From NCBI GenBank assembly GCA_016744905.1, contig JADGDM010000001.1, positions 92,228 to 153,234 of the forward strand: 61,007 bases of DNA, in the 5' to 3' direction. Below, one piece after another: positions 5,438-56,229 of this stretch; position 1 is the stretch's first letter; the number at the start of each line of letters is the position of its first letter. This DNA is from Sulfurimonadaceae bacterium. GTDB lineage: Bacteria > Campylobacterota > Campylobacteria > Campylobacterales > Sulfurimonadaceae. Both the position numbers and the translations under genes were made by a program. The notes beneath the pieces were generated by a model, which made no database searches, was not told the DNA's origin, and worked only from the letters and a program-made list of their open reading frames with translations.

Positions 5438-6070
5438 ATGATTAATCGTAAAAAGCTATTAAGACAACTTTCTAGTACGCTTCTTCCCCCTTTTGCAGCT
5501 CTATTGATGAAAATCATCTATCTTACTACCAAAAAAGTCTATCACTATAAGGGTGAACTTCCTGACAAACCCCTGATCTTTCTTTTTTGGCATAATGATA
5601 TTTTAATGGAACCCCTTCAGTACCTTCATTTTCGTAAGAATCCAAATATTAAACTACTCATCAGTGATCATTATGATGGTCAACTTATTGCTAAAGCAAT
5701 GAAATATTATAAGTTTGGCAATATTGCTGGCTCTTCCAATTCTAATCCAACTAAGGTTTTGATTCAGGCAATGAAGTTTATTAAAAGTGGTGGAGATATA
5801 GGCTTAACCCCCGATGGACCACGTGGGCCGCGTTATTCAATCTCAAAAGGGACTATTATTATTGCGCAGAAGACAGATACCCCTGTGGTGATATTTAACT
5901 CACGAGCGAGTAGGTATAGAGCGGTTAAAAGTTGGGATAAGTTTGTTATTCCTAAACTTTTTGGACGCGTGGATTATTACGCCAGTGCGCCTATCTACTT
6001 GAGTGATTTGAGCTATGAAGAAGCGGAGAAAAAAGTGAAAGATGCTATGATGGTTCATGCGTATGATTAG
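5438..6070 (+). CDS. Lysophospholipid acyltransferase-like protein (DUF374)
   Basis: The 210-residue product has a hydrophobic N-terminus and the acyltransferase-like motifs LFWHNDILMEPL, SDHYDGQLIAKAM, GGDIGLTPDGPRGPRYSISKG and PVVIFNSRASRYRAVKSWD. These identify the DUF374 branch of the glycerolipid acyltransferases. The WHND motif stands in for the HX4D motif of PlsC. It probably acts at the inner membrane in lipid or lipid A acylation, but the substrate is unknown. It follows miaB and is ten bases ahead of the next gene, in one operon. Confidence 0.85.
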   Translation: MINRKKLLRQLSSTLLPPFAALLMKIIYLTTKKVYHYKGELPDKPLIFLFWHNDILMEPLQYLHFRKNPNIKLLISDHYDGQLIAKAMKYYKFGNIAGSSNSNPTKVLIQAMKFIKSGGDIGLTPDGPRGPRYSISKGTIIIAQKTDTPVVIFNSRASRYRAVKSWDKFVIPKLFGRVDYYASAPIYLSDLSYEEAEKKVKDAMMVHAYD

Positions 6071-6079
6071 GAGAATATT

Positions 6080-6526
6080 ATGAAGTATGTGATTATTACT
6101 ATTGTGACTTTTTTAAGTTTAGGGGCGTACTTCTTACTAAATCCCTCTTACGAAAAGTCTTTAGAATCTAAGTACTATTACATGGTTGGTGAGTATGATA
6201 CTGCGGAAACTTTAGCGAAAGAGGCTTTTAGTCTTAATCCTTATAACCGTATGGCTGCAACAGTAATGACACAGTCTCAAACGGCTCTGATTTTTGTTAG
6301 ATATATTGATCAATCAAAAAAGTATATTCATGAGATCTCTAAAATGGCAGAATCAAAAAGTATTGATGATGCTGAGAAAGCTAAAATTAAATTGATGAGT
6401 GAGATTATGATTGACTCGTATAAAAAAGTTATTTCAACGGTCTTTATTGATAAAAAATTAGTCGAAGAAGCAGCGCATTATCATAAGGAGTTTGTTGAGC
6501 TCAATGAAAAAGTCTCTACACAGTAA
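6080..6526 (+). CDS. Single-pass membrane protein of unknown function
   Basis: The 148-residue product begins with one hydrophobic segment (VIITIVTFLSLGAYFLL) and continues as mostly helical, charged sequence, probably periplasmic. The stretch YDTAETLAKEAFSLNPYNRMAATV is reminiscent of a TPR helix pair, but one repeat is too little to assign the family. A ribosome-binding site (aggagaatattATG) is present. The gene overlaps the start of the Xer recombinase gene by 23 bases and lies in the miaB operon. I do not recognise the function. Confidence 0.7.
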   Translation: MKYVIITIVTFLSLGAYFLLNPSYEKSLESKYYYMVGEYDTAETLAKEAFSLNPYNRMAATVMTQSQTALIFVRYIDQSKKYIHEISKMAESKSIDDAEKAKIKLMSEIMIDSYKKVISTVFIDKKLVEEAAHYHKEFVELNEKVSTQ

Positions 6527-47481: not shown

Positions 47482-47970
47482 ATGAATGTTGAATGGATGA
47501 GTATAGAAGAGTATTTGGCTTTAACACAGTTAGATCCAAGTTCTGTCGATGACTTAATTGAACGTGGCAAGTTAACGGTTAAAGTTGAAAATGGAAAAAC
47601 ATTTATTGATCCTTCGAAGGGAACTTTAGAGGTACTTCCACCTGAAGTTCAGGACCTTACACTAGGTGAGGGAACTATGACCGTAGATTCTCAGTTTGTT
47701 GAGAAAACTATTGGTACTATTATCAACCTCCATGAAAAAGTTCTTGGTGCTAAAGACGAGACTATTGAGTCTGTTAGAAATGAAAATTCGTTTCTAAAAG
47801 AGGCTTTGGCATCCCTACAAGAGCTTTATGAAGAAGATCGAAAAACAATCGAAACATTGACTGATCAGCTTAAACTGACTCAAAAAGAGACAGAGTTTAT
47901 GCGTAGAAAGTATAAGTTGATGTGGGGAAAAGTGGTAGAAGAGTACGCCGAAAAAGACCCCACTTCTTGA
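47482..47970 (+). CDS. DUF3972 family protein
   Basis: I start at the ATG at 47482 (MNVEWMSIEEYL), which has the ribosome-binding site ctaagg; the GTG nine bases upstream is less likely. The 162-residue protein opens with an excisionase/MerR-like helix-turn-helix look (SIEEYLALTQLDPSSVDDLI), followed by a short linker and a long C-terminal coiled coil rich in E, K, L and T. The family is nearly confined to Campylobacterota and lies after purE there too. Function unknown; DNA binding plus coiled-coil assembly is an inference. Confidence 0.8.
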   Translation: MNVEWMSIEEYLALTQLDPSSVDDLIERGKLTVKVENGKTFIDPSKGTLEVLPPEVQDLTLGEGTMTVDSQFVEKTIGTIINLHEKVLGAKDETIESVRNENSFLKEALASLQELYEEDRKTIETLTDQLKLTQKETEFMRRKYKLMWGKVVEEYAEKDPTS

Positions 47971-48839
47971 ACATTCAAGACGCTTGTGTTGAATGTATTA
48001 TTAATCAATCTCGTCGCGTAGCTCAGGCTATTGACGCAGACGAGACACTTAGTTTAGAACTTACTTCTACAGTCAGTGAAATGACGGACTCTTTTAATTT
48101 TAAAACTTCCCCTCCTGTTGTTGCTACTCCTATTTATCAAGCTATGGCAAACATTGCAGGTAAAACTGACTTGTATGATGAAGTTAAAAAAAACTCTACT
48201 TTAAAGGCTTTAGAATTTGTTCCCTCGCTTAAAATTAAAATAGCAAATTCGTCTACACCTCTTTTAACCTCTATTAAAATTGCGGTTGCAGGTAATGTAA
48301 TTGATTTGGCAGCTGAGGTAAGTTTTGATCTTGATGAGGAGATTGTTAAAATTTTTGATACCCACTTTTCGATAGATGATTTTGAACTTTTAAAATCAAA
48401 ACTAGAAAGTGTACAAACCTTACTCTATATAGGAGATAATGCAGGGGAACATATTTTTGATTATCTTTGTATTGAAAGTATTCAAAACCTCTATCCACAC
48501 TTGAGTGTCTCTTATATGACAAGAGGTGCACCTATTATCAATGATGTGACCTATGAAGAGGCGGTTGAAGCAGGATTTGATAAATTATGTAACTTGGTGG
48601 ACAGTGGTGTAAAAACACCTGGATTTGATTACCTAAGTGCCAATAAAGCATCTCAAAAACTTTTTGATAGCGTAGATGTAGTTATAACAAAAGGAATGGG
48701 AAACTATGAGTGTTTAAGCCCAACACATCGCAAAGATCTTTTTTATCTTTTAAAAGTAAAGTGTAATGTGGTGGCCTCGTCTCTAGGACGTGAAGTAGGC
48801 GATATTATCTGTAAGCAAAATTCTATATCACCCAACTAA
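47967..48839 (+). CDS. DUF89/ARMT1-like phosphatase family protein
   Basis: DUF89 proteins are metal-dependent damage-control phosphatases acting on overflow or damaged phosphometabolites. The natural start is TTG at 47967 (MNIQDACVECIINQSRRVAQ), overlapping the DUF3972 stop as TTGA; the frame opens 45 bases earlier but the N-terminal CxxC of the family (C7, C10) begins just here. Further signatures: YIGDNAGEHIFDYLCIE (metal-binding D157 and N158), TRGAPIINDVTYEEA, and ITKGMGNYECL. 290 residues is a normal length. Substrate unknown. Confidence 0.88.
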   Translation: MNIQDACVECIINQSRRVAQAIDADETLSLELTSTVSEMTDSFNFKTSPPVVATPIYQAMANIAGKTDLYDEVKKNSTLKALEFVPSLKIKIANSSTPLLTSIKIAVAGNVIDLAAEVSFDLDEEIVKIFDTHFSIDDFELLKSKLESVQTLLYIGDNAGEHIFDYLCIESIQNLYPHLSVSYMTRGAPIINDVTYEEAVEAGFDKLCNLVDSGVKTPGFDYLSANKASQKLFDSVDVVITKGMGNYECLSPTHRKDLFYLLKVKCNVVASSLGREVGDIICKQNSISPN

Positions 48840-48857: not shown

Positions 48858-50690
48858 CTACTTACTTGTTAGAGAGAGGGTATATCTGTTATCTTCTTCT
48901 AGTGTCTCATGTGCTCTGACGTTTACCGTATACACTTTACCTGCAATAGCATTGTATTCAATATAAGAAAACTTATCAGAATTATAGTAGTTGGTACTTT
49001 CTACAACTTCTAAACCATCCTCGTAGAGGTGTAAGTAAAAACGTGGATCTTCAAATATATGCCCATTCCATATCAGATCTAGGCGTACTCTTTGGCTGGT
49101 TTCAATATCAAAAGTATATGAATCGATACTATTTGTAATACTGTTCAAGATTTTAGTTTGATTTTGATCAAATAGCAGCGTATCGGTGGCAGCAGAAATA
49201 TATCCAGGAGAGACATTCAATACATAGCTTAAGTTTTTATCCAATGTATTATTAGAACGTACCATCACCGTGTATAAACTACCCTCTTGAACCGTATGCT
49301 CATAGTTTGTATAGTTATCTGAATTGTAATAATTATCTTTTGAGATAATTTTCACATCGTCTTCATATATCATCAGCTCAAGATTTGTGTCATAGGATTG
49401 ATCTTTCCAGTTCAGTGAAAAAAGAGTATTTGCATCTTTTAATGCTGTGAAACTGTAAACATCGTAGATATCAGTAAGTTGATTTACACTGTCTTCGTAG
49501 CTGACACTTTCATTTAGATCAATTTTATTGATATTGTTTGAGCTTGTTGTAAGTTCGATGGCGTAAGATAAATTCACATCATTGGTGTCTTCAGATGAGA
49601 TTACCATGGTGTAAGTCATATCTTTTAAAAGTTCAGTTGTATAATTCCAATAATTATCTGTGTCATAATACTCATCTTTAGACTCTTTATATGAACCATT
49701 TTCGTATAAATACAGTTTAAGACTTGTATCTGTTACATCCCAAAAAAGAGATAAGTTAATTAACTCATTGTGCGTTGGAGTATAGGTATAGACATCATAA
49801 AGATCTTCTTTTTGATTGAGAATATCAAGATGAGTATTGTTTGGAACTAAATTAATTGTGTCGCTATTGGCAGTAGAACTTGATATTTCAAGTGCATAAT
49901 CAATATCTTTACTGTAAGTGTCATCAGCTATCATTAAAAAGGTATAGGTATTGCCTTCTGTGAGATTAATACTATTATAGGTAATAAAAAAATTATCTGA
50001 GCTATAGTATCTACTTAAGGCACTTAAATAAACACCATTTTCATAGACTTTCATCTGTATGTTTGCATTTCCCAATGAACTTGAGTTCGTCCAGTTCGCT
50101 TTGATTCCTACAGTTTCACTTTTTGTAGCCAGCATACTATAAGCATTATAAAAATTTGTATTTTGGTTTAATGTATTAAAGAAAGTTTTATTACTGGTAA
50201 TTTCTTGCATATCACCAAGGTTTTGAGCCGAATAAAGTTCAAAAGAGTAATCAATATCTGAATTTTCATCGCCCTCTATCTCAAAAGTATAGGTGTTTCC
50301 AATTACTGCAGAAAAAACCACCTCTTTGGTAAAATCACTGTCATAATAGTTCGAATTACTACCAATAGTAGAACTGCTTGAGTTCTCATAAACTTTTAAA
50401 TTCATATAGGTTGTAATGCTGGTTGGCGACGTCCATGAAATTCGTACACGCATGTTCTCTGTAGCAGTTGCAACATATTTTAGAGTGTAGGTACGTGTTG
50501 ATGCCAGTTGTAGACTTAATCGTTCATTCACTGAGATTGAACTATTGGTAGGGTTGTCAAAATCTCCTGTACCTGTAAGTGCGGTTGGATCACTATTATA
50601 CTCTGCGTCTAAATCGTCATAACTTTTGTCATCACATGCTGAGAAGAATAGTACTCCAAGTAGTAGTGTTATTGATAGATATTTTTTCAT
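48858..50690 (-). CDS. Lipoprotein with five PPC-like beta-sandwich repeats
   Basis: I start at the ATG at 50690 (MKKYLSITLLLGVLFFSAC, lipidated C19), which has a strong ribosome-binding site (aaaaaggaaaaag). The mature 590 residues consist of five tandem units of about 108 residues. Each has the core order YDVYSF-like strand, hydrophobic strand, LxLYENG-like strand, the marker YY(N/D/S)SD(N/K/F), and a final 'YTVMVRS...LSYxLxLxSS' strand. This is the pattern of the PPC (pre-peptidase C-terminal) sandwich found at the ends of secreted proteases. It is downstream of an outer-membrane protein and an M6 protease with a free propeptide, so it may help display or bind the protease. Confidence 0.7.
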   Translation of the reverse strand: MKKYLSITLLLGVLFFSACDDKSYDDLDAEYNSDPTALTGTGDFDNPTNSSISVNERLSLQLASTRTYTLKYVATATENMRVRISWTSPTSITTYMNLKVYENSSSSTIGSNSNYYDSDFTKEVVFSAVIGNTYTFEIEGDENSDIDYSFELYSAQNLGDMQEITSNKTFFNTLNQNTNFYNAYSMLATKSETVGIKANWTNSSSLGNANIQMKVYENGVYLSALSRYYSSDNFFITYNSINLTEGNTYTFLMIADDTYSKDIDYALEISSSTANSDTINLVPNNTHLDILNQKEDLYDVYTYTPTHNELINLSLFWDVTDTSLKLYLYENGSYKESKDEYYDTDNYWNYTTELLKDMTYTMVISSEDTNDVNLSYAIELTTSSNNINKIDLNESVSYEDSVNQLTDIYDVYSFTALKDANTLFSLNWKDQSYDTNLELMIYEDDVKIISKDNYYNSDNYTNYEHTVQEGSLYTVMVRSNNTLDKNLSYVLNVSPGYISAATDTLLFDQNQTKILNSITNSIDSYTFDIETSQRVRLDLIWNGHIFEDPRFYLHLYEDGLEVVESTNYYNSDKFSYIEYNAIAGKVYTVNVRAHETLEEDNRYTLSLTSK

Positions 50691-50701
50691 CTTTTTCCTT
50701 T

Positions 50702-51814
50702 TTAAAATGACCAACTAAGGTTTATTTTGAGATTGTTAACAAGTTCAGATCTTCCATAAATCATCTCCATCTTTCCATCATCATTCTCATCTGAGACTGT
50801 ATCAAAACTAAATTCATCAAGGTACTGTCCATTGTAAAGTATATTAAAATTAAAAGCAGTATATTCAAAAACAAAGCTATGTTGATATCCTAGATTGACC
50901 GCTGCAAATAGATTGACAGCGTCACTAAAACTTATGTTTGTCATACCTGCTTCTTCTAAACGCTTTTTAGCAGCTTGACCTGGATAAGTTTGACTTAATC
51001 CTAAACCGAGTTCAAGTCCATAGATAAAATGCTCTGCTTTAATATAATCAACACCAGCAGTAAGTGTGTATTTATCTGAGGTAAAGTGCTCATCTAAGTC
51101 ATTATAGCCATCGACAAAATAGATGACCTGAGGGAAAGTACTCTCTTCTTTATAAAATTTATAAAAGGAGTAACTTTCTGTATTATAAAAGAGGTTTGAT
51201 TTTGCTTCTATTATATATTTTACACCATATTGATTTTTATTCATAGTGAGTTTTTCGAGATAATCTCCTCGTTTATAATAGCCTTCAAATTCAGCTTCTC
51301 TATATATAAGACTGAATCTTGATACATGGCCTAAAAGAGTATTACTTTGTTCTAAATTTCCGTAACCACCAAGATATTGTGTGGCTAAAAAGAAGAGTTC
51401 ATTGGTATCACTTGCTTCAAGTGTAGGAATATCCCATGGTGCGCTGGTTAGTGTAACATCTGTACCATTAATAGAGTAGGTAAAGTTCCAGTTAAAAATT
51501 TGTAGACGAAGCTCTTTGTAATTAGAATTAATACCTTTAAAGGCAAATTCTCCTGGATCAGCGAGTGAAATCGAGTTTCCTTCAGCGTCAGTAAAGTCTG
51601 GATCACTGATTTCACTTTTAACTCTTAATGTTGAGTACTCCGCACCATAGAGAAGTTCTGCCTTAAATGAGTCGAATATATAACCTTTTGCAGGAGGGGT
51701 TTTAAAGGGAGTTGTCTCAGTTGTATTTATATCGGTTGATGCTTCTATGATTGATACGTTTAATAGTAATAGTGTGAATAAAAAGAGTGATTTAAGTGTG
51801 GTTTTTTTTAGCAT
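50702..51814 (-). CDS. Outer-membrane protein of unknown function
   Basis: The 370-residue product has a signal peptide (KSLFLFTLLLLNVSIIEAS) and a beta-rich mature part with many aromatic, alternating strands (ELLYGAEYSTLRVKSE, TAGVDYIKAEHFIYGLELGL, GYQHSFVFEYTAFNFNILYN). It ends NLKINLSWSF, a typical beta-signal with terminal phenylalanine, so it should be a barrel of about 14-16 strands. The repeat lipoprotein gene follows after 11 bases. No specific porin or transport family recognised; a role in secretion or display of the neighbouring protease is possible. Confidence 0.65.
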   Translation of the reverse strand: MLKKTTLKSLFLFTLLLLNVSIIEASTDINTTETTPFKTPPAKGYIFDSFKAELLYGAEYSTLRVKSEISDPDFTDAEGNSISLADPGEFAFKGINSNYKELRLQIFNWNFTYSINGTDVTLTSAPWDIPTLEASDTNELFFLATQYLGGYGNLEQSNTLLGHVSRFSLIYREAEFEGYYKRGDYLEKLTMNKNQYGVKYIIEAKSNLFYNTESYSFYKFYKEESTFPQVIYFVDGYNDLDEHFTSDKYTLTAGVDYIKAEHFIYGLELGLGLSQTYPGQAAKKRLEEAGMTNISFSDAVNLFAAVNLGYQHSFVFEYTAFNFNILYNGQYLDEFSFDTVSDENDDGKMEMIYGRSELVNNLKINLSWSF

Positions 51815-51827
51815 TCGCTGATATAGT

Positions 51828-51882
51828 CCTCTGTGAATATATATCTTAGTAGATAATTGAGAATAGAATTATAGCACAGAGG
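51828..51882 (-). repeat. 8-bp inverted repeat around the promoter of the outer-membrane protein gene
   Basis: CCTCTGTG (51828-51835) and CACAGAGG (51875-51882) are perfect inverses 39 bases apart. On the minus strand a TATAAT box (51868-51873) lies just inside the left arm as read in that direction. The arms could be a paired operator or the base of a long leader hairpin of the outer-membrane protein gene. Confidence 0.5.
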
Positions 51883-51893
51883 GATAAAATATA

Positions 51894-52247
51894 TTAATGT
51901 TTTTTCCGTTGATATTTTTTAAGACGTTTCTCTTCCCAAAGCTTGAGTAAGGCATCTTTACTTACACTTTTAGCTACTCCTCGTAGCTGCTTTTTGTGAT
52001 GTGAATATCTCTCTCCACTGGCTTTTAACTCATTTTTGCTTATCTCTGCGTAATCGTAGTTTTGAGTTTGAGCGTTGTATTTTATAATATTTTCATGTTC
52101 ATCTTCTATCCAGTGCAGATGTTCATCTCCTTTAAGTGTTGCAAAGAATGTCTCTCCATCTTCTTGGATATAAGTACGTTCTCTTTGCAGTGCTGGCGCG
52201 CTGAAGGCAAGAGTGAAGAGTAAAATGCTTAAGAGTAGGGTTTTCAT
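51894..52247 (-). CDS. Free-standing M6 protease propeptide-like protein
   Basis: The 117-residue product has a signal peptide (MKTLLLSILLFTLAFSAPA). The mature part begins RERTYIQEDGETFFATLKGD, then EHLHWIEDEHENIIKYN with QNYDYAEISKNELKASGERY. This reads like the N-terminal propeptide of M6 family metalloproteases (pattern: QxDGxxFxAxLxGDExxHWxExxxGxxIxxxxxxYDYA). No catalytic domain follows; a basic tail (LWEEKRLKKYQRKKH) ends it. The catalytic gene lies eight bases upstream. It could act in trans as a folding chaperone or inhibitor of that protease. Family resemblance is clear; the trans role is inference. Confidence 0.65.
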   Translation of the reverse strand: MKTLLLSILLFTLAFSAPALQRERTYIQEDGETFFATLKGDEHLHWIEDEHENIIKYNAQTQNYDYAEISKNELKASGERYSHHKKQLRGVAKSVSKDALLKLWEEKRLKKYQRKKH

Positions 52248-52255
52248 GGAGTGCC

Positions 52256-53647
52256 TTAGTTTGGATTGGTGATGGTGAGTGTCATAGTAGATGAAACTGA
52301 TGAAATATTTTCTACTTCTATTGCGGTATCATTACTGTTATATAAACGAGAATTAGGACTGGTACTTGGAGTGAAACGGGTCGCACTGCGTCTATAGAAA
52401 AGGTTTTTAGCATCTCCATGTTCATAAGGACTAGAATCCAGTCTTGCATTAAGTGCTTCTTCAAGGTCAATGCCTTTATGGCTCTCATTTGTCTGTATAC
52501 GGTTGCTGGCATAGTTAGCATAGATGGTTGTTTCATCAATATGCCAAATAGCCATACCGCCAATAAAGCTTCCATCGAGCGAATTTAACCCTTTATCATA
52601 ACCAAGGTTGGCACGATTTTCTACTAAAAAGTATTCATTGGCTACTTGTGTAGGTATTTTTAAAATATCCATATTAGATAGCGCGCTGGCTGAAAGGGTA
52701 TAGGCTTTATCGTTGACCTGTGTCACTACGATTGGTGTTACCCAGCCATTTTTCACTTTAGACCAGGCACACATATGTGTAGGTGTATAGCCTGAAACTT
52801 CACTCTCCTCAGCATATCCCCAAGTTCCTCCACTCATCAATCCAAAGTAACCTATCCCTGCAGAAGAGTCATCTACATCATAAAGATCAGGAAGATCAAA
52901 GGCGGAGTGCCCTAATTCGTGCGCGATAATACCAATACTTGCATCATGTGAACCGATATAGCGACTGTTTTGATCATAATCACTATGTCTCTCACCAAAG
53001 AGTGCGTAGGTTCCATTATTATTACAAGACATCAGTGAAACACCATCTAGAGTAGGGGTGTTTGAGTTTAAAGTACAATCTTGATGTCCCCAAACTCCTG
53101 GTTCACTGGTATCACCAGAATAGGCATCTTCATTTCCAGCAACTATAAAAACTATCTGCAACTCTTGAAAAGAGATATGCCCATTTGAGTCGGTATCGTA
53201 AATGGCGTAATTAATATACTGATCGCTACGCTCTAGCGCCTCTTTTAAATCAGAGTGAATACTGTAGTCTGAACCACTATCTGGATGGTTTTTATCTAAA
53301 AGAATAGTAATCACACCATCTTCTTCAATATCTTCATTTTCATGTGCGCGTTGAAAAGAGAATTTCCCAGCAGAGACTTCTCCATAGTAATGATTGAGTT
53401 GGTGATTAGAATTACCGAAAATTTTATTACTCCAAGTCAGTGCATTTTGTGTGAATTGTGCATTTTGATATTCTAGTCTGACTAAGAGAAGAGGAATATA
53501 GTCGGGAGTATTAGGCGCAGTGACTAAAGTTGTATCATCATCTAAGGGTGTATCAATGGTTTTTGAAGGAGTACTCAATGATATTTCATCACTACACCCG
53601 CTAAATAATAAAAAGAGTAAAAGGCTAAAAGTATATAATTTAAACAT
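52256..53647 (-). CDS. M6 family metalloprotease lipoprotein
   Basis: The 463-residue product has a signal peptide and lipobox (LLFLLFSGC, lipidated C18), so it is anchored to a membrane. The catalytic zinc motif is HELGHSAFDLPDLYD with H243, E244, H247 and D254, the M6 pattern (immune inhibitor A type). Family stretches before and after include YIPLLLVRLEYQNAQFT, LNHYYGEVSAGKFSFQ, YFGLMSGGTWGYAEES and MCAWSKVKNGW. There is no propeptide at its N-terminus; that domain is encoded by the next gene. A C-terminal beta domain ends ISSVSSTMTLTITNPN. Expected to be a secreted endoprotease; substrate unknown. Confidence 0.88.
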   Translation of the reverse strand: MFKLYTFSLLLFLLFSGCSDEISLSTPSKTIDTPLDDDTTLVTAPNTPDYIPLLLVRLEYQNAQFTQNALTWSNKIFGNSNHQLNHYYGEVSAGKFSFQRAHENEDIEEDGVITILLDKNHPDSGSDYSIHSDLKEALERSDQYINYAIYDTDSNGHISFQELQIVFIVAGNEDAYSGDTSEPGVWGHQDCTLNSNTPTLDGVSLMSCNNNGTYALFGERHSDYDQNSRYIGSHDASIGIIAHELGHSAFDLPDLYDVDDSSAGIGYFGLMSGGTWGYAEESEVSGYTPTHMCAWSKVKNGWVTPIVVTQVNDKAYTLSASALSNMDILKIPTQVANEYFLVENRANLGYDKGLNSLDGSFIGGMAIWHIDETTIYANYASNRIQTNESHKGIDLEEALNARLDSSPYEHGDAKNLFYRRSATRFTPSTSPNSRLYNSNDTAIEVENISSVSSTMTLTITNPN

Positions 53648-53724: not shown

Positions 53725-54606
53725 ATGCTTACATTTAGTGACATGTTATTAAAATTACAAGAGTTTTGGAAAGATCAGGGTTGTAATATTGTTCAACCAT
53801 ATGACATCTCAGCAGGAGCAGGAACCTTCCATCCTGCAACATTTTTACGCTCACTTGACTCAAAGCCGTGGTCGGTAGCTTATGTGGCACCATCACGCCG
53901 TCCAACTGATGGTCGTTATGGAGAAAATCCTAACCGCCTTGGCTCATATTACCAATTTCAAGCATTGATTAAACCAAGTCCAGACAATATTCAAGAGCTT
54001 TATCTTAAAAGTTTAGAGTACCTTGGTCTGAACCTTCAAAATCATGATATCCGTTTTGTTGAAGATAACTGGGAGTCTCCAACATTAGGTGCTTGGGGTC
54101 TTGGTTGGGAAGTTTGGCTTGATGGAATGGAAGTGACACAGTTTACCTACTTTCAACAAGTCGGGGGTATCGCTTGTGATCCTGTTGCTGTTGAAATTAC
54201 TTATGGAACTGAACGTCTTGCTATGTATCTTCAAGGTGTAGACAATATTTTTGACATCGTCTGGAATGAAAACGAACATGGGACGACGCACTATAGAGAT
54301 ATCCATAAAGAGAGTGAAATAGAGTTCTCAAAATATAATTTTGAAGTGGCGGATATTGAGATGCTGTTTCATGAGTTTGAAGCCAAGTCAAAAGAGTGTT
54401 TACGTGCGCTAGATGCAGAGCTTCCACTGCCTGCGTATGACCTGTGTATGAGTGCTTCAAATACTTTTAATATTTTAGATGCTAGAAAAGCAATCTCTCA
54501 AACTGAGCGCGCCAACTATATTTTGAAAATTAGAGATCTGACAAAAGCCTGTGCTGAATTGTATAAAGCCCAAGAAGAAGATCGTAATAAAAGAGTACAA
54601 GCATAA
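53725..54606 (+). CDS. glyQ: Glycyl-tRNA synthetase alpha subunit
   Basis: Catalytic subunit of the tetrameric alpha2beta2 glycyl-tRNA synthetase. The 293-residue product has [59 protein letters not shown], the [20 protein letters not shown] and [20 protein letters not shown] motifs. glyS is not in the window, so the beta subunit is encoded elsewhere, common in this phylum. A response regulator gene follows after 17 bases and may be co-transcribed. Confidence 0.97.
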
Positions 54607-54623: not shown

Positions 54624-55283
54624 ATGATTAGAATATTAATGCTAGAAGATGACCCTTTAATCTCGAAGCTTGTAGGCAGTTATCTCTCACATCATTTTAC
54701 TATTGATTGTGTTGAAAACCTTAAAGATGCCAACAACTACTTAGACCAACTACATTATGATGTTATTTTACTTGATCGAAATATTGATGGTGAAGATGTT
54801 GGAATGAATCTTATCTCTAAGATTAAAGAAAAAAACTCACAAACCGGTATTATTGTTATTAGCGCCTATGATACTATCAGTGATAAAATCGCAGGATTAA
54901 ACTTAGGTGCAGATGATTATCTAGACAAGCCTTTTGATAATGAAGAGTTATTGGCACGGATCAATGCTTTAGCGCGCCGTCATCAAACAAGCCCGGTTAT
55001 AGATGTTGATGGTCTCATTTGTGATATGGAAAAAAAGAGTCTAATTTATGAAGACCAGCAGATTTTACTTTCTAAAAAAGAGAGTGATCTATTTTTTACA
55101 CTGCTCTCTAAAATATCACAAGTAGTATCAAAAGATGAACTTTTAGATGCCTTATACTTAAACCCTCAAAATATCTCCTCAAATACCATTGATGCGACGA
55201 TTAAAAATATTCGTAAAAAATTACCGGTACAGATCATTAAAACGATTAAAACGAGAGGCTATATTATTGAAAAAATCCAATAG
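54624..55283 (+). CDS. OmpR/PhoB-type response regulator
   Basis: The 219-residue product has a receiver domain with D9/D10, phosphoacceptor D51 (VILLDRNIDGEDVG), conserved S80 (IVISAYDT) and K102 (YLDKPFDN). A winged-helix DNA-binding domain of the OmpR type follows (LSKKESDLFFTLLSK, SSNTIDATIKNIRKKL, IIKTIKTRGYIIEKI). It is the first gene of a three-gene signalling operon; the kinase gene starts inside its end (17-base overlap). Confidence 0.93.
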   Translation: MIRILMLEDDPLISKLVGSYLSHHFTIDCVENLKDANNYLDQLHYDVILLDRNIDGEDVGMNLISKIKEKNSQTGIIVISAYDTISDKIAGLNLGADDYLDKPFDNEELLARINALARRHQTSPVIDVDGLICDMEKKSLIYEDQQILLSKKESDLFFTLLSKISQVVSKDELLDALYLNPQNISSNTIDATIKNIRKKLPVQIIKTIKTRGYIIEKIQ

Positions 55284-56229
55284 CCTACACTCGAGTATCA
55301 TCTCTTTTTTTCTTATAAGCAATCTTATAATATTTTTAGTATTAGCGACGTATCTTATAATAAGTACAACAAGTAGAGCGTTTATTTATGAAATACTAGT
55401 TGTGTATGCCGTGATATTTGGCTTTTCACTGATCAGTTTATGGTTCTATTTAAATAAATTATTTTATCCCTTAAAATGTTTGGTGAATTTTTGTAAAGAT
55501 AGCACTAATGGTGCGATGACTGTCCCTGTATGCAAAGGCTCAACAGAGGTAAATGAAATCAAAGATGCAATTATTTTATTGATGGATGATAATCAACATC
55601 TTTGTGATCAAAAACAAGATGTTTTTAAAGAAGCAGCGCACGAGATAAAGTCTCCGATTGCTGTTTTAAAAGCACGCCTGTCACTCTTTAAGCAAAGTGA
55701 TGACTATAAGAAAGTGCTTTTTATTAAAGAGAGTGAAGAAGATATCATTAGAATTAGTAACAAATTGAAAGAGTTACTATTTTTAAAAGAGATAGAGTGG
55801 GAGATGCTACAAGATCGAGAGAGTGTTTCGATGCAAGATCAGTGTAGTCAGATGCAACAGTTATTTCGTCCAATCTTGGATAAAAAAAATCTTCAAATAA
55901 TCTCAAATTTTGAAGACGATTTTATGTTAACCGTACACCTTAGTGCCATGCAAAAAGTAATGCAGGCTATTTTTGAGAATATATTTATGCATACTAAAAA
56001 CAGTTCTGTTATTCGTACATATATTGATCCCGAAATAGATGAACTCAGTATTGTTAATGAGATAGGGGACAAAAGTGATGAGACCCTATTTAGCTCGCAT
56101 ATAGGAACGAAGATGATTAAACGTCTTTCGGAAAAACTAGACTATAAGTATGAGACGATAGAAAAAGATGGCTATTTCACAACTAAGATACGTTTTAAAG
56201 TTTTAGAGCGCGCTGAGTGCAAAATATAA
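55267..56229 (+). CDS. Membrane sensor histidine kinase with a divergent ATPase domain
   Basis: The probable start is TTG at 55267 (MKKSNSLHSSIISFFLISNL), which begins the first membrane segment; the frame opens 78 bases earlier, inside the regulator gene. It then has a second membrane segment (YEILVVYAVIFGFSLISLWF), a HAMP-like linker and an H-box with H125 (KEAAHEIKSPIAVLK). The ATPase domain is degenerate: the N-box reads FENIFMHTKNSS, and the usual G1 and G2 glycine boxes are replaced by NEIGDKSDETLF and SSHIGTKMIKRL. There is almost no periplasmic sensor domain. It is coupled to the regulator gene, its likely partner. Reduced ATPase signatures leave catalysis uncertain. Confidence 0.83.
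   Translation: MKKSNSLHSSIISFFLISNLIIFLVLATYLIISTTSRAFIYEILVVYAVIFGFSLISLWFYLNKLFYPLKCLVNFCKDSTNGAMTVPVCKGSTEVNEIKDAIILLMDDNQHLCDQKQDVFKEAAHEIKSPIAVLKARLSLFKQSDDYKKVLFIKESEEDIIRISNKLKELLFLKEIEWEMLQDRESVSMQDQCSQMQQLFRPILDKKNLQIISNFEDDFMLTVHLSAMQKVMQAIFENIFMHTKNSSVIRTYIDPEIDELSIVNEIGDKSDETLFSSHIGTKMIKRLSEKLDYKYETIEKDGYFTTKIRFKVLERAECKI

Follow-up and report, generated by a model that had tools for sequence, protein, structure and literature searches.

A free-standing homologue of the M6 protease propeptide is encoded beside a propeptide-less M6 lipoprotein

We find that in a bacterium of the Sulfurimonadaceae an M6 metalloprotease lipoprotein without a propeptide is encoded directly upstream of a small exported protein that is, judged by profile comparisons, truly homologous to the propeptide which other M6 proteases carry fused at their N-terminus. 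The genes lie in a 61,007-nucleotide stretch of DNA, here called the window, which is part of contig C112 of a 3.0-Mb genome. Our computations give the homology of the two propeptide forms, a conserved pairing and order of the genes, a single change on the protease tree, and joint gain and loss of the pair. The conserved unit consists of the protease and propeptide genes only; a barrel-like protein and a repeat lipoprotein encoded behind them are neighbours of this module, not components. It appears likely that the pair forms a split M6 zymogen, in which the separately exported propeptide would hold the propeptide-less protease latent in trans.

Protease and propeptide in the window

An ORF check places four minus-strand genes, from 53647 to 48858, exactly where a preliminary description of this DNA had put them. 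The locus and its flanks contain the following features:

52256..53647, minus strand: M6 metalloprotease lipoprotein without a propeptide, 463 amino acids (TIGR03296 over the cut-off)
51894..52247, minus strand: free-standing M6-type propeptide, 117 amino acids (profile-profile match, HMM of fused propeptides only, presence of the partner)
51828..51882, minus strand: inverted repeat in the DNA that separates the propeptide gene from the barrel gene (fold z -2.06)
50702..51814, minus strand: exported barrel-like protein, 370 amino acids, a neighbour (no Pfam family; 1 of 151 family genomes)
48858..50690, minus strand: lipoprotein with five PPC-like repeats of ∼113 residues, a neighbour (1 of 151 family genomes)
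53725..54606, plus strand: glyQ (glycyl-tRNA synthetase alpha), divergent flank (PF02091, E 6.6e-142)
47922..48839, plus strand: ARMT1-like phosphatase gene, convergent flank (PF01937, E 7.2e-65)

The first protein had been described as an M6 metalloprotease lipoprotein lacking a propeptide, and its TIGR03296 score (141.3 bits, cut-off 110.8), a lipobox (FSGC, with Cys18) and a HELGH motif (residues 243–247, DNA 52907–52921) bear this out. It is also the sole PF05547 match of its genome in a six-frame search (36.3 bits, cut-off 22), although PF05547 was missing from a plain hmmscan of the protein at E<=1. His243, Glu244, and His247, which we take to be zinc ligands, are invariant together with Cys18 and Asp254 in 40 of 40 aligned relatives. 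This invariant cysteine is our evidence for the lipobox; regular-expression counts were left unused, as they were too strict and missed obvious lipoboxes. One long protease (L161) is an exception, having no clear lipobox by eye. The fused M6 proteases, in contrast to the 40 split-type proteins with their lipobox cysteine, begin with what appear by eye to be ordinary signal peptides. In the window protein no propeptide precedes the M6 domain, which starts at about residue 54: the N-terminal propeptide that fused members carry in the same chain is absent, and the homologous domain forms a separate ORF.

For L137, a close relative, the structural model of residues 1–413 superimposes on the InhA2 zymogen (PDB ID 4yu5) with Z 28.0 (r.m.s.d. 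is 2.7 over 363 residues, and the next unrelated rows reach Z ∼10). This only solved M6 zymogen aligned with the catalytic part alone, and Foldseek with VIA-align returned no match to the propeptide part. The M6 domain also contains an EF-hand-like calcium loop, DTDSNGHISFQEL (residues 149–167, window 53147–53203), with weak Pfam hits; all 40 aligned relatives keep its Asp151 and Glu162.

The second ORF starts 8 bp downstream of the protease. Its 117-residue product consists of a signal peptide (ending AFSAPA), a small β domain bearing a GDEHLHW motif, and a basic C-terminal tail with LW..KR. We built a profile from 44 free-standing relatives found in genomes of the family; in the window's own genome it has a single match. 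Among ORFs of the best 80 of 126 relatives' loci, this HMM picks out 13 large M6 proteases by their N-termini, with E values of 1.9e-5 to 5.3e-16. These proteases come from Bacillota, Brocadiaceae, Nitrospinota, Aminicenantes, Omnitrophota, Chloroflexota, Acidobacteriota, an Alteromonadaceae bacterium, and one unassigned bacterium. The match spans the region right behind the signal peptide and includes a GDE.x.W.ET.DG motif. An HMM made in turn from the 13 fused propeptides alone recovers every one of the 44 free proteins without a further hit in 2,289 ORFs, and detects the window propeptide with E 1.8e-15. Aligning the free and the fused families by hhalign yields a probability of 99.6 (E 1.1e-23), compared with 0.2 for an unrelated control alignment. 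The preliminary description had called this protein a free-standing M6-type propeptide and had staked the reading on a profile search for similarity to M6 propeptides. Such similarity is found both by hhalign and by the fused-only HMM, and the free HMM agrees with them. No Pfam or NCBIfam domain matched the 117-residue protein, nor did any model of these collections match the fused propeptides in the five examples scanned.

Pairing across genomes and origin of the split

Of 151 genomes of the family, 43 contain both the protease and the propeptide, and 108 contain neither. The raw counts are 43 for the protease and 44 for the propeptide, the difference being a hit in G015 that we set aside as spurious: it is a short match (E 3.5e-5) inside a 1,323-residue ORF, listed by an HMM trained on it and unmatched by the fused-only profile built without it. 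For 43 of 53 protease ORFs, the window included, the propeptide gene lies directly downstream on the same strand (two cases are to be read with care), and the protease comes first in all 43 pairs. The intergenic distance falls between -4 and +29 bp in 41 pairs, 24 of which have gaps of 8–10 bp; the two outliers reflect the choice of start codon (-125) and a stop inside the protease (213). The preliminary description had also staked its reading on a conserved neighbourhood in related genomes. For the propeptide and the propeptide-less M6 lipoprotein such conservation is found, and every protease-bearing genome also has the propeptide.

Ten protease ORFs have no adjacent propeptide, which counts against our preferred explanation, and each resides in a genome with a propeptide elsewhere. 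They comprise one upstream tandem copy, one ORF near a contig end, two distant M6 pieces (L114 and L118, counted among the 53), and six others. In G003 two tandem proteases have one propeptide gene in common, and G033 has two propeptide genes for three proteases. Propeptide genes that are unlinked to proteases and yet kept are found in G033 and G047, at the same chromosomal place in these two genomes. These unlinked genes (L116, near 6001–6294, and L115:5737–6231) share the same two neighbour genes, presumably encoding an HPF-like and a YaaA-like protein.

Pairwise distances of proteases and of their propeptides correlate (r 0.82 for 41 pairs, leaving out L085 and L111, which have a variant motif), a value that common descent alone may explain. 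The acidic protease segment has a median net charge of -28 and the basic propeptide tail one of +7, which would favour binding of the two but is no proof of it.

We calculated a protease tree from 80 catalytic segments, of which 56 belong to proteins with a free propeptide, 13 to fused proteins, and 11 to proteins with neither; protease ORFs shorter than 300 amino acids or without HE[LMF][GA]H, for example L186 and both pieces of L208, were left out. With the rows that have neither set aside, one change on this unrooted quick tree separates the free form from the fused one; the clade of the split form has a support of 84, with one free row (L175) just outside. The single change suggests that the transfer of the propeptide from the N-terminus into a downstream gene was probably a single event. 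A rooting attempt, from which L210 and L188 were additionally omitted, puts the root among the fused rows and unites all 55 free rows and 8 unpaired ones in one clade; this rooting is weak because the outgroup branch is long (5.75). The outgroup is a very distant partial M6 protein, whose propeptide matches weakly (E 4.5e-4 with the joint HMM, 0.019 with the free-only HMM). We infer that the fused form is ancestral, since its spread over phyla is wider: among the relatives listed, the split form is found in Campylobacterota, SAR324, a Bathymodiolus thiotrophic symbiont, and two proteobacterial MAGs. No ORF in the best 80 of 126 relatives' loci combines a fused propeptide with an adjacent free one. 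We considered a broken or frameshifted fused gene and rejected it, as the gene order is reversed and, in each of the pairs, the propeptide comes with a separate start and signal peptide. A distant M6 protein with a weakly matching fused propeptide is present in the MAG G025 (L118:1–1090), and a further distant piece in L114.

Neighbouring genes and the chromosomal site

The preliminary description had joined four genes into one 'exploded' protease, to be sought by co-occurrence in other genomes. In this search the protease and propeptide genes recur together; the barrel and the repeat lipoprotein do not, as they are confined to the window's own genome (1 of 151) and find no match in 150 other family genomes, 42 of which bear the protease. 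The propeptide and barrel genes are moreover separated by a promoter-like site with an extended -10 (51897–51868, 10 of 12 matches) that adjoins the inverted repeat. Together, repeat and site suggest that the barrel and repeat genes form a transcription unit of their own, apart from the pair; 26 promoter-like sites were found compared with 21.9 expected by chance, which makes this support weak.

The barrel had been described as an outer-membrane barrel: it is barrel-like in sequence character, and membership in a barrel family does not follow, as no Pfam match was obtained. The same genome holds a paralogue of 38% identity (G000:C61:6336–7277; L117:5671–6981) with no adjoining repeat lipoprotein, whose N-terminus resembles, by eye, an added SH3b-type domain. 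For the repeat lipoprotein, the start is most likely ATG 50690, behind an AAAAGG site, which we prefer to TTG 50714. The five repeats of ∼113 residues reported for it are present; their PPC identity is weakly backed, as repeat 5 matches PF04151 below the cut-off (E 0.0019, 19.5 bits, cut-off 25.9) and PPC is unlisted for the other four in a Pfam scan. Apart from this sub-threshold hit, no curated family of Pfam or NCBIfam matched the propeptide, the barrel, or the repeat lipoprotein.

Of the 43 loci, 31 have a glyQ homologue in the vicinity of the pair and 28 an ARMT1-like gene. In 14 of these 28, the ARMT1-like gene overlaps the propeptide gene or is at most 24 bp away from it, a further result at odds with a four-part locus; in the window 3,055 bp separate the two, occupied by the barrel and repeat genes. 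We located glyQ in 13 of 14 examined genomes without the pair. In three of them (G001, G016, and G028) the ARMT1-like gene directly abuts glyQ, in three others different DNA separates the two, and in seven no ARMT1-like gene was found within reach of glyQ. The side-by-side arrangement in the first three indicates that the genes of the pair come and go together. In some genomes of another genus, a small exported barrel-type family with an MDYREY motif occurs beside glyQ, with or without the pair (L079:7719–8567, L088:7641–8450, L091:5100–5906, L222:668–1453, L223:673–1452). Its members show no similarity to the window's barrel in sequence comparison.

All four genes lie adjacent on one strand and encode exported products, and just 79 bp separate propeptide and barrel, as one would expect if protease, propeptide, barrel, and repeat lipoprotein made up a single displayed protease. 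We regard such a four-gene system as highly improbable: against the pair in 43 of 151 genomes stand a barrel and a repeat lipoprotein in one, the barrel paralogue is located far from any M6 gene, and the unrelated barrel-type genes occupying this site elsewhere, whether or not the pair is there, argue that barrels at the site do not track the protease.

Possible control of the protease in trans

Binding, latency, location, and activation of a split zymogen are what we infer from the sequences of the pair. The ancestor would have been an M6 protease with a Sec signal peptide followed by an N-terminal propeptide. In one lineage, signal peptide and propeptide would have split off as a gene of their own immediately downstream, leaving behind a catalytic part that acquired a lipoprotein signal and retained no propeptide. 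Because of their signal sequences, both products are expected to be exported by Sec. In the periplasm, the free propeptide would bind the catalytic domain non-covalently and thereby keep it latent, possibly aiding its folding; activity could set in once the propeptide is diluted, degraded, or separated, for example when the lipoprotein reaches the cell exterior. As the propeptide domain resides in a separate exported protein, control of the protease probably runs between two proteins and not inside one. An AlphaFold prediction of the L137 pair read through as one chain folds both domains and the propeptide's C-terminal helix confidently (pLDDT 93.7, pTM 0.79), and a natural fused protein (L200) gives comparable figures (pLDDT 89.5, pTM 0.76); in neither case does pTM decide docking.

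Latency in trans in the periplasm, perhaps combined with folding, is most likely the task of the free propeptide, and two other tasks have to be weighed against it. The propeptide could be a folding helper only, a steric chaperone in trans for a protease that is active once folded. The protease indeed lacks its own propeptide, and many propeptides of proteases act as intramolecular chaperones, as stated for M4 proteases in PMC6490944, where rhpC is described as a chaperone as well as an inhibitor. Two observations speak, if weakly, against a helper without inhibitory function: the propeptide gene is second in 43 of 43 pairs, so that the propeptide is not made first, unlike in fused chains (both roles can coexist), and one propeptide serves two proteases in G003 and two serve three in G033. 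We consider this reading unlikely. Less probable still is a general role in the periplasm, in which the propeptide fold would now serve as an inhibitor or immunity protein against other proteases and the adjoining M6 protease would not be its main target. For emfourin, a role as an immunity-type inhibitor has been proposed (PMC9505478), but the propeptide here is tied to an M6 protease in 43 of 43 genomes, the sole protease-less case (G015) being spurious. We thus return to latency in trans as the preferred reading. An extension of it, which we hold to be possible and put forward tentatively, is that a single gene fission created a system of two components, a membrane-anchored metalloprotease and a diffusible propeptide that controls it in trans and can be shared or unlinked. 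With a propeptide common to several proteases or unlinked from them, latency would be a stoichiometric setting and not a matter of one-time cleavage.

Propeptides normally act once, inside their own chain. Inhibitors encoded beside a protease are known, and the present case differs from them by protease family and in that the protease lacks its own propeptide, whereas SpeB and SUB1 retain theirs. SpeB is a cysteine protease of family C10, unlike M6, and SUB1 a eukaryotic serine protease, compared with the bacterial metalloprotease of the window. The likeness lies in gene arrangement, as far as the portions of the reports at hand go: in Streptococcus pyogenes the propeptide analogue Spi is encoded beside SpeB and inhibits it (PMC2873492), and SUB1-ProM, a stand-alone propeptide-like protein from a locus syntenic beside its protease genes, is a potent SUB1 inhibitor (PMC6993865), as with other subtilisin propeptide-like inhibitors (MEROPS I9) with stand-alone genes beside a protease. 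The window propeptide, by its predicted features, likewise appears to be a small secreted propeptide homologue encoded beside a protease.

Among metalloproteases, rhpPC (PMC6490944) and protealysin-emfourin (PMC9505478) are described, in the available parts of these sources, as an M4 protease whose operon also contains a gene for a small inhibitor, and RhpP is without an M4 propeptide (PMC6490944). They belong to the M4 family and RhpC is cytoplasmic, whereas the window pair is M6 with a propeptide predicted to be exported by Sec; in those parts we found no statement that either inhibitor descends from a propeptide. The studied M6 enzyme PrtV of Vibrio cholerae loses its N-terminus on maturation, with processed forms starting from residue 106 (PMC2613228); we liken it by this maturation step. 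Among known relatives are also the 13 fused peptidases of the TIGR03296 type, which share the catalytic domain and a homologous propeptide sequence; they have the propeptide in cis, whereas in the window a gene of its own, downstream of the protease gene, encodes it and the protease is a lipoprotein. We found no description of a free-standing M6 propeptide in the open-access literature searched. An old and widely kept natural split of this kind allows the duties of a propeptide (to fold, inhibit, or escort) to be tested without protein engineering, and an unannotated family present in many sulfur-associated Campylobacterota and SAR324 bacteria gains a likely function as a protease partner.

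Past glyQ, the window encodes a response regulator and a histidine kinase (54624–56229), which might control the pair; members of the response regulator's family are likewise encoded close to the pair in G002, G009, and G012.
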